Source: Persephonella hydrogeniphila (GTDB lineage Bacteria > Aquificota > Aquificia > Aquificales > Hydrogenothermaceae). Taken from it: a stretch of 57,675 bases of DNA. Shown in pieces: positions 37,970 to 41,994 of the stretch. The notes under the pieces are model-generated. The model had not been told where the DNA came from and ran no database searches. It saw nothing but the letters and a program-made list of their open reading frames with translations. The stretch's first letter is position 1, and each line of letters starts with the position of its first letter. Made by a program: the position numbers and the translations under genes. The stretch lies in the NCBI RefSeq assembly GCF_900215515.1, contig NZ_OBEI01000012.1, forward strand, positions 1 through 57,675. The letters are read 5' to 3'.

Positions 37970-38004
37970 TTATTATTATTACTAATTAATAAAAGGTTAT
38001 TAAA

Positions 38005-40101
38005 TTGTATTTCTTTATAGTTGTTTTATCTGTTTTCATACTTGTAGATTTGTCTTTTGGAGGGATATCAAACACGCCCCATAATCTTTCTATAACAGGA
38101 ACAGGTAATATTAAAGCAGTATCAGAAACAGAAATATGTGCCTTTTGTCATATACCTCACAATGAAAAAGAAGGAACACCACTCTGGAACAGGAAGATGC
38201 CTGTTTCTGTTTACACGTTGTTTGATAGTGAGTTCCTATCAAGAATCAATTATCCCTCTCCACAGCAACCTTCTGAAGTAGAAGGACAGCCGGGAATTGT
38301 ATCAAGACAGTGTCTTTCCTGTCATGATGGGACAGTAGCTATAGGAGATATCTATATAATAAGAGGAACTGAGTTGGGAAATCAGATCATACAGATGCAG
38401 AATGTAAATCCTGATGGTACGATGCCTTCTACAGCTACCGGTTATATAGGAACAGATTTATCAGTCCATCATCCTGTTGCTATAGAGTATAATCCGGATG
38501 TAAGAAAAGACTTTGATATAGGCACCAAAACTGTTGAACTAAAAAGTTTACCGGATTCACCGATTAAACTGTACACTTACAGCGGTAAAAAATATGTGGA
38601 ATGTACATCATGTCATGATCCCCATAAAGAAAATAAAAAATTTCTCAGGGTAGATGTTGGAAATCTTGCACATGATTTTAAACAGACATGTATTTCCTGC
38701 CATGATAAACCAGGATGGACAGGTAGTGCCCACGATACTCAGGCTGTGGTTTATACAGATCCTGAGGTTATCCAGAAATACGGAGAAGGGTCTCCGGTAT
38801 CTGTAGCTGATCTGGGGTGTGGAAACTGCCACACTCCCCATAAGGCACAGGGAAGACCTTTACTGAGGAAGGTAGAGGAAAATACATGTTTCACAGGAGC
38901 AGGCGCTTCATCCTCTGTTGCTCCCTGTCATGGCTCAGGGGGAGCAAAAGATATCCAGTCTTTACTTCCTCCTAATAATATGTATGGACATCCCGTTACA
39001 GACTCTTCACTGGAAAATGTCCATACCCCCCTTGATATTTTGTACGGATACGGTTCTAATGAAACTGATCCTGCTAACAGCAGAACAATTAAATTTTCAG
39101 ACTCCAAGCATGCAGAATGTATGGACTGCCATAACCCCCACTCTGTCAAACCCGGAACTCATGTATCCCAGAATCAATGGTATCCACAGAGTTCTTCTCC
39201 TGAAGGAAACAACGTTTCACAGCCTTTATCTGGGGTATACGGTGTAGAACCTGTATGGGGTTCATTGTGGACACAACCCTCCCAGTTCCAGACTTTATAT
39301 ACAGCATCAAAAGAGTATCAGATATGTATGAAATGTCATTCAAGATGGGCTCTGGGAGACTCTCCGAATATGGATTGTACAACCTCTGAGATATCTTCTC
39401 AATCCGGTATTGTATTAACAGATCAGTCCTGCGAATTTAGTCCAAATAATAAATCTGCCCACCCTGTTGTTATGCCATTGAATCAGATGACAGGTAATTA
39501 CGACCCAAAATCTTTATCACCGGATCAGCTAAAACCGCCGTGGAACTCTAACCCTGGAAATCAGACCATGTACTGTTCAGACTGTCACGGTAATGATAAT
39601 GAAACGGCGAATCCTAAAGGTCCCCATGGTTCTCAGGCAAAATTTATGCTGAAAGGTCCTAACAAAAACTGGCCTGCAGATGAAAACGGCAGGTTGTATA
39701 AAGTAGGTGATATCTTTGGTACAAGTTCAGATGGAGGAACTACAGATGGACTGTTCTGTGTAAACTGTCATAATCTTGAGAATGCAGAGGTTCACCAGTT
39801 TAAAGGAAACGGTGGATGCTGTGGAGGAATGGGAGGCGGGGGAATGGGAGGAGGATTTGCTGATTTTCCATGTGTATACTGCCATGTTGCAGTTCCCCAT
39901 GGTTCACCTGTTTCGAGATTAATAGGCTATTCAAACTTTCCTGAGCCTTACAACTATATGGGTAACAGTCTAAAGCTGGATGGATTTGTAAAGAATAATA
40001 TACTGCAAAAATGGGATGCCCACTCTAATTCATTTACATGTAGATGTCATAGAATGGGAATGGGAGGAGGAAACTACGATCCTAATCCATATCCTTATTA
40101 G
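38005..40101 (+). CDS. Periplasmic multihaem c-type cytochrome with paired CxxCH motifs
   Basis: This 698-residue protein has ten classical CxxCH haem sites, at 45, 103, 200, 229, 272, 372, 441, 524, 585 and 623. Two unusual candidate sites are C295-x12-C308-H309 and C679-R-C681-H682. Several sites continue as DPH, TPH, NPH or IPH, as in the paired-CxxCH (doubled motif) family. A hydrophobic leader covers 1-20 but has no Lys or Arg. A Gly/Cys-rich patch (602-617) holds C605 and C606. The start is TTG at 38005, eight bases after AAAAGG. Such proteins carry electrons in the periplasm or at the surface; partner and substrate are unknown. Its end overlaps the next gene on the other strand by 20 bases. 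Confidence 0.85.
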   Translation: MYFFIVVLSVFILVDLSFGGISNTPHNLSITGTGNIKAVSETEICAFCHIPHNEKEGTPLWNRKMPVSVYTLFDSEFLSRINYPSPQQPSEVEGQPGIVSRQCLSCHDGTVAIGDIYIIRGTELGNQIIQMQNVNPDGTMPSTATGYIGTDLSVHHPVAIEYNPDVRKDFDIGTKTVELKSLPDSPIKLYTYSGKKYVECTSCHDPHKENKKFLRVDVGNLAHDFKQTCISCHDKPGWTGSAHDTQAVVYTDPEVIQKYGEGSPVSVADLGCGNCHTPHKAQGRPLLRKVEENTCFTGAGASSSVAPCHGSGGAKDIQSLLPPNNMYGHPVTDSSLENVHTPLDILYGYGSNETDPANSRTIKFSDSKHAECMDCHNPHSVKPGTHVSQNQWYPQSSSPEGNNVSQPLSGVYGVEPVWGSLWTQPSQFQTLYTASKEYQICMKCHSRWALGDSPNMDCTTSEISSQSGIVLTDQSCEFSPNNKSAHPVVMPLNQMTGNYDPKSLSPDQLKPPWNSNPGNQTMYCSDCHGNDNETANPKGPHGSQAKFMLKGPNKNWPADENGRLYKVGDIFGTSSDGGTTDGLFCVNCHNLENAEVHQFKGNGGCCGGMGGGGMGGGFADFPCVYCHVAVPHGSPVSRLIGYSNFPEPYNYMGNSLKLDGFVKNNILQKWDAHSNSFTCRCHRMGMGGGNYDPNPYPY

Positions 40102-40990
40102 TATTTTCTGACAGTTCATTTATATACAGGACAAGGTTATCTCTTATTATTTCTACTGTTTCCTTGTCTATCTCTTTTAATTTTGAAACAATAATAACTA
40201 TTCCGTATACATCTGTTTTATCTTCCACAGTTATTGCTACAACATGAGGAGCATTAAGTTTTTTGTTTACTTCGTGATTTTTGAAAAATATTACAGGTTT
40301 ATCTATGTAATTTAGTATACTTTTATCACAGTTGATTTTTTCTGTAGAATAGCATCTATTATTTTTTATGTCAAAAAACATTATCCCATCGGTTCCTAAT
40401 GTCTCATTTATATCATATATCCATATCTTTAACGGGAATTTTTTTTCTCTCATCTGTTTCAATGAGCTGTACACTTTTAGAATTTTGCTCTGCTGATTTA
40501 TCATCTCCTGATAGGATATATTCTTTATATATAGATTTTCCATCTCATTCTTAAGTTCCCTGAAGTAATTTTCTCTGTCTGAGAAAGTCCTGTAGAGTCC
40601 CAGAATACCGGTGGTACCGGCAAATATGATTGGTATAAAACTAAGTTCTGTAAAGTTTGATATGTATAAGGATGTAAAAACCGGAATTAAAGATAGTGTG
40701 GAAAAATATACAATTTCCTTTGTGTCTTTAACGAATTCGGCAAAAATAGGAATTATCAAAAGAGAGAGATATGTGTATCCAGTAAGATATATAGATATTG
40801 ATATAAAAAATATGTCAAAGATAAAAAAGAGGCGTTTAGAGGAGGGGTTTTTAGGAATTAAAAAATAAGCAAATATATAAACTCCTGATAGAACAGAAAG
40901 AGCTGTGCTATATTCAATATCTCCCGTGTAAACAGAAAGGATTACAGAGATAGCAATGAATATCCTTAAAATACTACTGTAAATACCCAT
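40082..40990 (-). CDS. Six-helix membrane protein with a GAF-like cytoplasmic domain, unknown
   Basis: I do not recognise this 302-residue protein by family. Six hydrophobic segments (about 5-22, 30-46, 55-70, 73-88, 93-110, 116-133) are followed by a charged, coiled-coil-like linker (137-183). A soluble alpha/beta domain (186-293) resembles a GAF-type sensor in length and pattern. No kinase, GGDEF, HD or phosphatase motif follows, so it is not a complete signalling enzyme. Its start overlaps the stop of the upstream gene as TAATG, and its end runs 20 bases into the cytochrome gene on the opposite strand. The GAF comparison is inference. Confidence 0.7.
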   Translation of the reverse strand: MGIYSSILRIFIAISVILSVYTGDIEYSTALSVLSGVYIFAYFLIPKNPSSKRLFFIFDIFFISISIYLTGYTYLSLLIIPIFAEFVKDTKEIVYFSTLSLIPVFTSLYISNFTELSFIPIIFAGTTGILGLYRTFSDRENYFRELKNEMENLYIKNISYQEMINQQSKILKVYSSLKQMREKKFPLKIWIYDINETLGTDGIMFFDIKNNRCYSTEKINCDKSILNYIDKPVIFFKNHEVNKKLNAPHVVAITVEDKTDVYGIVIIVSKLKEIDKETVEIIRDNLVLYINELSENTNKDMD

Positions 40991-41994
40991 TAACTGTCCT
41001 TGTATAACTTGTTTATTATAAAAAACAGGTCGTTTACAAAGTTTAATATTAATTTCTCATTTAAAAACTCTTTTTTCAAGTTGTACAGACTTTCATTAGG
41101 CTGGGAGGCGAACCATATAACAGGAAGATTAATTCTGTCTATATTTGAGTAGTCCTCTAATTTTTCCTCATTATAAGTTTTACCTGCTTTTTCTAATATT
41201 TTTTTTATCCTGATATAATGGAAACTATCAAGGAGATTTCTTCTGTTTTTTATTATGAGCTTTTCATTTCCTATACCACAGTTTTCTATGTTTATTATAG
41301 ACAGTATCTTATCTTTATCTATTTTGTTTATATGGTTATAAAGACCTTCGTAATCTGAAAATAGCATGTCAGATATTATTATCCTCGTTCTGTATCCTTT
41401 AGGATATTTAATGCTAATTAGTTTTTCTAACAGGTAGATAAGAGTACTGAGAGAACCGTAAAAACTCAAACTGTTTATATCCTGAAATCGGGAATCAACA
41501 GGAAGATTTATATAAATAAAGTACGTTCCTACACCTATATCTAAAAAAATATTTCTGTATTCCTTTTTTATTTTTTTGGTGGAAAGTTTTATATAAAGTT
41601 CTTCTTGTTTAATAAATGAAGGGATATAAAATACAGGAAAGTTTTCTATAAAAATCGGTTTTCTTATCTCCGTGTTTGTGATAACAGCAGCTGGATTTGA
41701 GATTTTTAAGTAGTGGAGAAATGATAGATTCTCTATATTCTCTATATATACAATCTTATCTGAAAGATTTTGGAGGGCTATATGTGGAAAATTCCCCTTT
41801 ATCTCTATTACAGGTGCTTTTATCTCTTTTTTTCCATGATATCCAAAGGATACAGGTTTGAGTTTGATTTTTTTTCCATCCAGATAAGTTAAAGCTTTTT
41901 TAATGACAGAATACTCTGTCTGAAAACTCTCTTCTTGTATCTGTGGTATATCTTTTATTTTGTTTGATATAACCCGTTTAATATATTCCCTCAC
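40990..41994 (-). CDS. Degenerate M28-like aminopeptidase homologue
   Basis: This 334-residue protein has the outline of an M28 aminopeptidase: an N-terminal part, a PA-like insertion (about 75-130), then an alpha/beta domain. Segments such as INLPVDSRFQDINS, SDMLFSDYEGLY and IINIENCGIG occupy the places of the HxDS...NDN, EExGLxGS and NLDM blocks. The His, the second Asp, the Glu pair and the late His that hold the two zinc ions are missing, so hydrolysis is unlikely. The start is GTG, overlapping the ilvE stop as GTGA, and the stop overlaps the next start. The family link is moderate and is based on pattern, not on a search. Confidence 0.6.
   Translation of the reverse strand: MREYIKRVISNKIKDIPQIQEESFQTEYSVIKKALTYLDGKKIKLKPVSFGYHGKKEIKAPVIEIKGNFPHIALQNLSDKIVYIENIENLSFLHYLKISNPAAVITNTEIRKPIFIENFPVFYIPSFIKQEELYIKLSTKKIKKEYRNIFLDIGVGTYFIYINLPVDSRFQDINSLSFYGSLSTLIYLLEKLISIKYPKGYRTRIIISDMLFSDYEGLYNHINKIDKDKILSIINIENCGIGNEKLIIKNRRNLLDSFHYIRIKKILEKAGKTYNEEKLEDYSNIDRINLPVIWFASQPNESLYNLKKEFLNEKLILNFVNDLFFIINKLYKDS

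Follow-up and report, generated by a model that had tools for sequence, protein, structure and literature searches.

The window analyzed here, a stretch of 57,675 nucleotides from Persephonella hydrogeniphila, contains a gene for what is very probably a twelve-haem rather than a ten-haem cytochrome, to judge from two non-standard haem sites that are conserved, and spelt as ordinary or near-ordinary motifs in Zixibacteria. An OmcE-like tetrahaem head is fused to an octahaem module, and the family to which the protein belongs would serve as an adaptor between an outer-membrane conduit and cytochrome wires. Taken as a whole, we consider this explanation, including the assignment of the product as an exported dodecahaem c-type cytochrome, to be probable.

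Gene and domain architecture

Three features define the gene and its product:

38005-40101, + strand: gene of the putative dodecahaem cytochrome (698 aa, TTG start), based on the open reading frame and homologues
38053-38709, + strand: OmcE-like tetrahaem domain, residues 17-235, with haems 1-4 at C45, C103, C200 and C229
38710-40098, + strand: octahaem module, residues 236-698, with haems 5-12, which most of the Zixibacteria found encode separately, next to an OmcE-like gene

The TTG codon is preceded, at a distance of 8 nt, by the sequence AAGG (37993-37996). If translation starts at this codon, the signal peptide contains no Lys or Arg; an in-frame ATT two codons further upstream would bring in one Lys. 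The N-terminus shows no lipobox. The protein matches the Pfam family Paired_CXXCH_1 (PF09699) with 72.2 bits, against a gathering cut-off of 20.6. It contains ten CxxCH motifs, whose first cysteines are residues 45, 103, 200, 229, 272, 372, 441, 524, 585 and 623, as well as the non-standard motifs C295-x12-C308-H309 and C679-R-C681-H682. The initial annotation had noted ten CxxCH motifs and both non-standard ones, and these were confirmed in the open reading frame. An AlphaFold2 model built from 15 sequences reached a mean pLDDT of 30, too low for use.

We searched for homologues in 61 relatives, 136 Aquificota, 397 Campylobacterota (the phylum of the genome with locus L037), 296 genomes from the phylum of the L044 genome and 132 genomes from that of L045 (Zixibacteria). 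This yielded 28 distinct full-length homologues with 47-84% identity to the window protein (BLASTP), plus fragments and split forms. Together with the window protein, they form the full-length set of 29 sequences from Aquificota and Campylobacterota, which was extended to an alignment of 42 forms by 13 from Zixibacteria, ten of these joined from adjacent genes.

Residues 17-235 match the sequence of PDB entry 7tfs_A (phmmer, E=1.7e-21; profile search, E=7.6e-27), which is OmcE of Geobacter sulfurreducens (PMC12954529). The profile search also matched this domain to 9yuq_N, another solved OmcE-like cytochrome (E=4.8e-16). The matching region covers nearly the whole of OmcE, including its four CxxCH motifs and its four conserved non-motif histidines. 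OmcE-like proteins are widespread (PMC12307469), and the chains of OmcE and of the short OmcE-like proteins stop at haem 4. In contrast, the window protein does not end where an OmcE-type chain would (~230 aa, four haems) and continues for 463 residues with eight more haem sites.

Aquificota, Campylobacterota and three of the Zixibacteria (L097-L099) encode the two parts in a single gene. In other Zixibacteria (L059, L100-L105, L108-L111), an OmcE-like gene of 211-218 aa adjoins a gene of ~355 aa. Since the same parts occur both fused and as adjacent split genes, this distribution gives Rosetta-stone support to the reading as an OmcE-octahaem fusion. No description of such a fusion was found in the open-licence papers and databases searched. 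The initial annotation had missed both the nanowire-type domain and the fusion. Distant relatives of the octahaem module are also found inside giant cytochromes from the phylum of the L044 genome (L044, L058, L083-L096), open frames of ~750-2060 aa with 5-21 CxxCH motifs that match the window protein only past the OmcE domain.

Two probable non-standard haem sites and the number of haems

Outside the CxxCH motifs, four features of the octahaem module were compared across the family:

38887-38931, + strand: haem site 6, C295-x12-C308-H309, invariant in 29/29 full-length members and CxxCH in 13/13 Zixibacteria forms
39376-39432, + strand: C458 and C476, a probable disulphide pair, both present in 12/29 members, neither in 17/29, never singly
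39808-39855, + strand: Gly/Met-rich loop with C605-C606, residues 602-617; the cysteines occur in 1/29 members, and sequence and length differ
40039-40050, + strand: haem site 12, C679-R-C681-H682 (CX1CH), with CH in 28/29 members, CX2CH in L082 and CX3CH in Zixibacteria

At site 6, C295, C308 and H309 are each retained throughout the full-length family, so that the invariance proposed in the initial annotation holds. Twelve residues separate the cysteines in the full-length members, and 13 in Sulfurimonas L037; the distant L106 and L107 have CX10CH, and the aligned Zixibacteria forms carry a plain motif, for example EENLCFNCH compared with EENTCFTGAGASSSVAPCH in the window protein. If retention of both cysteines and the histidine, combined with a standard motif in homologues, is taken as the mark of a haem c site, site 6 bears it. 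On the simplest reading, CX12CH would have arisen from a loop grown within a presumably ancestral CxxCH: haem 6 would be held by C295, C308 and H309, with a 10-residue insertion between the cysteines. Expanded motifs of this kind are already known, namely CX14CH at haem 1 of OmcZ (PMC9473688) and CX15CH in MccA/SirA (PMC6976685), while no usable precedent for a CX12CH haem motif was found in the open-licence literature.

Site 12 is conserved in a looser way. A C-terminal CH is present in 28 of the 29 full-length members, and each of these 28 has a cysteine 1-9 residues before it, at spacings of 1, 2, 4, 5, 6, 7 or 9. Direct reading of the motif therefore gives 28/29, and the lower per-column count for C679 (25/29) merely reflects how the variable spacing disturbs the alignment. 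The motif is a canonical CNQCH in L082 and CX3CH (CYLRCH, CYLMCH) in all 13 Zixibacteria forms. Accordingly, a CH with an upstream cysteine and a standard motif in homologues is found here as well, except in L038, which lacks the C-terminal CH, and in the partial homologue L041, which lacks the upstream cysteine. In a PMSF tree, the CX1CH state (n=1) changed at least three times on well-supported branches; the tree labels L038 as n=2 by an automatic rule, although this protein actually has no terminal CH. The expected conservation of C679, C681 and H682 was thus borne out for the CH and a nearby cysteine, with variable spacing between them. The two spacings had also been called unusual. This stands insofar as the open-licence literature yielded no earlier case of a natural haem attached at CX1CH, but both sites interconvert with CX2CH, CX3CH or CX10CH among homologues. 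We propose that haem 12 would be held by C681 and H682, with C679 providing a second or optional thioether. Because the CH is lost in L038 and the upstream cysteine is absent from L041, haem 12 may be dispensable or attached by a single thioether.

Ten CxxCH motifs and the two non-standard sites add up to twelve in the window protein, and intact forms in general have twelve sites: the Zixibacteria reach the same total as 11 + 1 in fused and 4 + 7 + 1 in split forms. Thirteen non-motif histidine positions are kept in 42/42 aligned forms: H26, H52, H156, H207, H279, H329, H340, H369, H379, H486, H541, H632 and one in the loop around H597, which does not stay in the same column. In addition, all fused forms retain H243. 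Thirteen universal histidines are enough for twelve bis-His haems, whereas ten haems would leave three of them idle. By analogy, the spare universal histidine could be the residue that OmcE-type subunits lend to their neighbor, inter-subunit ligation by histidine being known for OmcE (PMC9473688, PMC12307469); the lent residue would then be H26.

Two smaller haem counts have to be weighed against twelve. Exactly ten haems is what standard motif counters return, and both odd motifs would then be disulphides or zinc sites. We regard this as highly improbable, since homologues have standard or near-standard haem motifs at both odd positions, the universal non-motif histidines exceed the need of ten haems, and C308-H309 is an invariant CH, which is typical of haem c and superfluous for a disulphide. 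Eleven haems, with a genuine site 6 and a redox or structural cysteine pair at the CX1CH end of the window protein and the other n=1 members, is a less remote but still unlikely alternative. It draws on the unusual chemistry of CX1CH, on the shifting position of the upstream cysteine and its absence from L041, and on the loss of CH in L038. On the other hand, the 28/29 CH at site 12 and its CX2CH and CX3CH forms in homologues speak for a haem, and repeated changes of the n=1 state are expected for a loosely constrained haem loop. Moreover, there is no other free cysteine as a bonding partner, barring C458/C476, which would pair with each other, and C605/C606, which only the window protein has. 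We therefore retain twelve haems as the preferred count.

As for these remaining cysteines, the perfect co-variation of C458 and C476 suggests a probable lineage-specific disulphide. The Gly/Cys/Met-rich patch at residues 602-617 had been put forward as a possible metal-binding site; a conserved metal site was rejected, given that the two cysteines are confined to the window protein and the loop varies in sequence and length.

Orphan copy, conduit cluster and haem synthases

Upstream of the window gene lies truD, and the gene downstream is convergent and has no Pfam match; this arrangement is the same in G011 (L050) and different in G015 (L049). Two genes on the minus strand (40082-40990 and 40990-41994), both without Pfam match, keep their order next to the orphan copy of G011. 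The window gene itself is outside any cluster of the Uet type described below and is an orphan paralogue of a cluster gene: the same genome encodes a paralogue with 68% identity at G000:C13:26346-28388. The initial statement that the gene stands alone is thus correct for the window copy but not for the family, which is found in an electron-conduit cluster. Likewise, the redox partner had been called undefined; the window copy indeed has no cluster neighbors, but partners are suggested by the cluster of its paralogue.

We compared the window protein with its orthologues and obtained pN values of 0.11-0.14 and pS values of 0.73-0.75 (near saturation); all pairs of the orphan clade gave pN 0.05-0.15 and pS 0.55-0.75. 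Because pN is far below pS, the orphan copy is, by this measure, under purifying selection and maintained as a protein. Decay of the window copy was rejected on the same grounds, its reading frame being intact. Within the orphan clade, L031:3-2099 has lost H107 and reads CLSCY at motif 2, and L042:7986-10056 is frame-shifted; these changes may reflect decay or sequence errors in metagenome-assembled genomes.

The paralogue cluster (L046) encodes a NapC/NirT-type tetrahaem cytochrome, cytochromes with seven, eight and eleven haems, a monohaem cytochrome, three short OmcE-like proteins and a further cytochrome with 11 CxxCH motifs and the C-terminus CAPMCH. In addition, it contains three NHL propellers, a SurA-type PPIase, part of a CcsBA and a 776-aa protein with a SPOR domain as its sole Pfam match, which is putatively a barrel, judging from its size, signal and C-terminal Phe. 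In Aquificota, Campylobacterota and Zixibacteria alike, a barrel gene is followed by an NHL gene and then by the gene of the dodecahaem protein or the two genes into which it is split. Among Campylobacterota genomes, second copies of the dodecahaem gene also lie outside a conduit cluster (L117:8595-10658, L119:3634-5628).

This gene content resembles the Uet system of Tenderiales and Gallionella, which comprises the undecahaem UetJ, the tetrahaem UetA, the PPIase UetB, the porin UetC and the NHL proteins UetHI (PMC10734462). At the paralogue locus, we found the corresponding set of an 11-CxxCH cytochrome, a tetrahaem OmcE-like protein, a PPIase, a large barrel-like protein and NHL genes, the likeness being one of gene content. 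No trihaem UetDEG was seen within the 19.6 kb stretch of this locus, and the dodecahaem fusion is absent from the published Uet parts. The UetJ/DmsE-like 11-CxxCH cytochrome of these clusters (L046:5009-6199 on G000:C13, L052:2263-3372, L037:41-1015) ends in a conserved CX3CH (CAPMCH, CGPLCH, CAPACH), so that this "undecahaem" cytochrome may also hold a twelfth haem.

Near-complete Persephonella genomes with a family member (G004, G005, G009, G011) encode two fused CcsBA haem synthases of ~1050-1085 aa; in G004, G005 and G009, one of the two is found no more than ~4 kb from the cluster gene. G001 and G006, which are near-complete and have no family member, encode one fused CcsBA; the incomplete G012 (70%) has two and no detected family member. 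The CX15CH of W. succinogenes and E. coli NrfA are established cases in which an odd motif has a haem lyase of its own (PMC6976685), and by inference sites 6 and 12 would be matured by the cluster CcsBA. In the genome of the window, a fused CcsBA is apparently split over contig ends, with 622 aa on G000:C9 and 465 aa on G000:C13; these contigs probably adjoin, since parts of CcsBA are found on both ends.

Proposed role in extracellular electron transfer

OmcE homology and the cluster suggest that the family takes part in extracellular electron transfer, as a partner of the conduit of outer-membrane β-barrel, NHL propeller and undecahaem cytochrome. The fusion, the histidine H243 of the fused forms and the gene order make an adaptor between this conduit and OmcE-like filaments the most likely role. 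The OmcE-like head would dock on the end of an OmcE-like filament and thereby link conduit to wire; surface location and docking are what we infer from these features. Instead of an adaptor, the protein could possibly form the tip of a filament or act outside the cell as a cytochrome on its own.

That the dodecahaem protein itself polymerizes into a thick filament, as the retained N-terminal H26 of an OmcE-type head might suggest, seems improbable to us. OmcE and its relatives end at haem 4, where the window protein carries its long extension; H243 could replace the ligand given by a neighbor; and the same cluster has separate OmcE-like genes. Still less probable is a role as a multihaem reductase of the MccA or NrfA type, an enzyme-like protein of the periplasm or the cell exterior whose catalytic haem would occupy one of the odd sites. 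It is true that motifs such as CX15CH and CXXCK are hallmarks of catalytic cytochromes that have haem lyases of their own (PMC6976685), and the octahaem MccA/SirA sulphite reductase shares with our family an expanded CXnCH and, near the cluster gene, a second haem synthase gene. However, MccA/SirA belongs to another family, to which searches of Pfam, NCBIfam and PDB sequences revealed no family-level similarity, and the twelve sites of the window protein show no sign of a catalytic haem. NrfA-like matches in these searches were sub-threshold and due to shared CxxCH pairs, and membership in either family was rejected. The universal histidines suffice for bis-His ligation at all haems, the cluster content is of the electron-conduit type, and the CX14CH site of OmcZ sits in a non-enzymatic filament (PMC9473688).

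The octahaem nanowire OmcZ resembles the window protein, as an electron-conducting cytochrome in which an extra loop splits the cysteine pair of a haem site, but it has CX14CH instead of CX12CH, and the latter site is plain CxxCH in Zixibacteria (PMC9473688); OmcZ structures gave no match to the window protein in PDB sequence and profile searches. A porin-cytochrome conduit combined with a cytochrome filament is also known from syntrophic sulphate reducers (OetABI with OmcX/OmcS-like filaments; PMC10553843). There, the gene set is a different one, and OetB is described as a lipoprotein.

Returning to the adaptor, a more detailed joint reading can be offered tentatively, and we lean slightly against its holding in full. 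The terminal OmcE unit would cap a filament, with H243 replacing the histidine of the missing neighbor, and electrons would pass through the octahaem module to the barrel conduit. At the same time, natural haem c sites would be able to keep their haem while drifting from CX2CH down to CX1CH and up to CX13CH, possibly with the help of a dedicated CcsBA.

For annotation, these results mean that pipelines counting CxxCH motifs would come out two haems short for this dodecahaem family. The natural series of spacings at site 6 (CX2, 10, 12, 13) and site 12 (CX1, 2, 3, 4, 5, 6, 7, 9) offers ready material for testing how wide a range of motifs CcsBA haem synthases accept. Finally, a fusion of a filament subunit and an octahaem module is encoded beside an outer-membrane barrel in three phyla, and purification and co-purification of these proteins could test the link from wire to cell surface.
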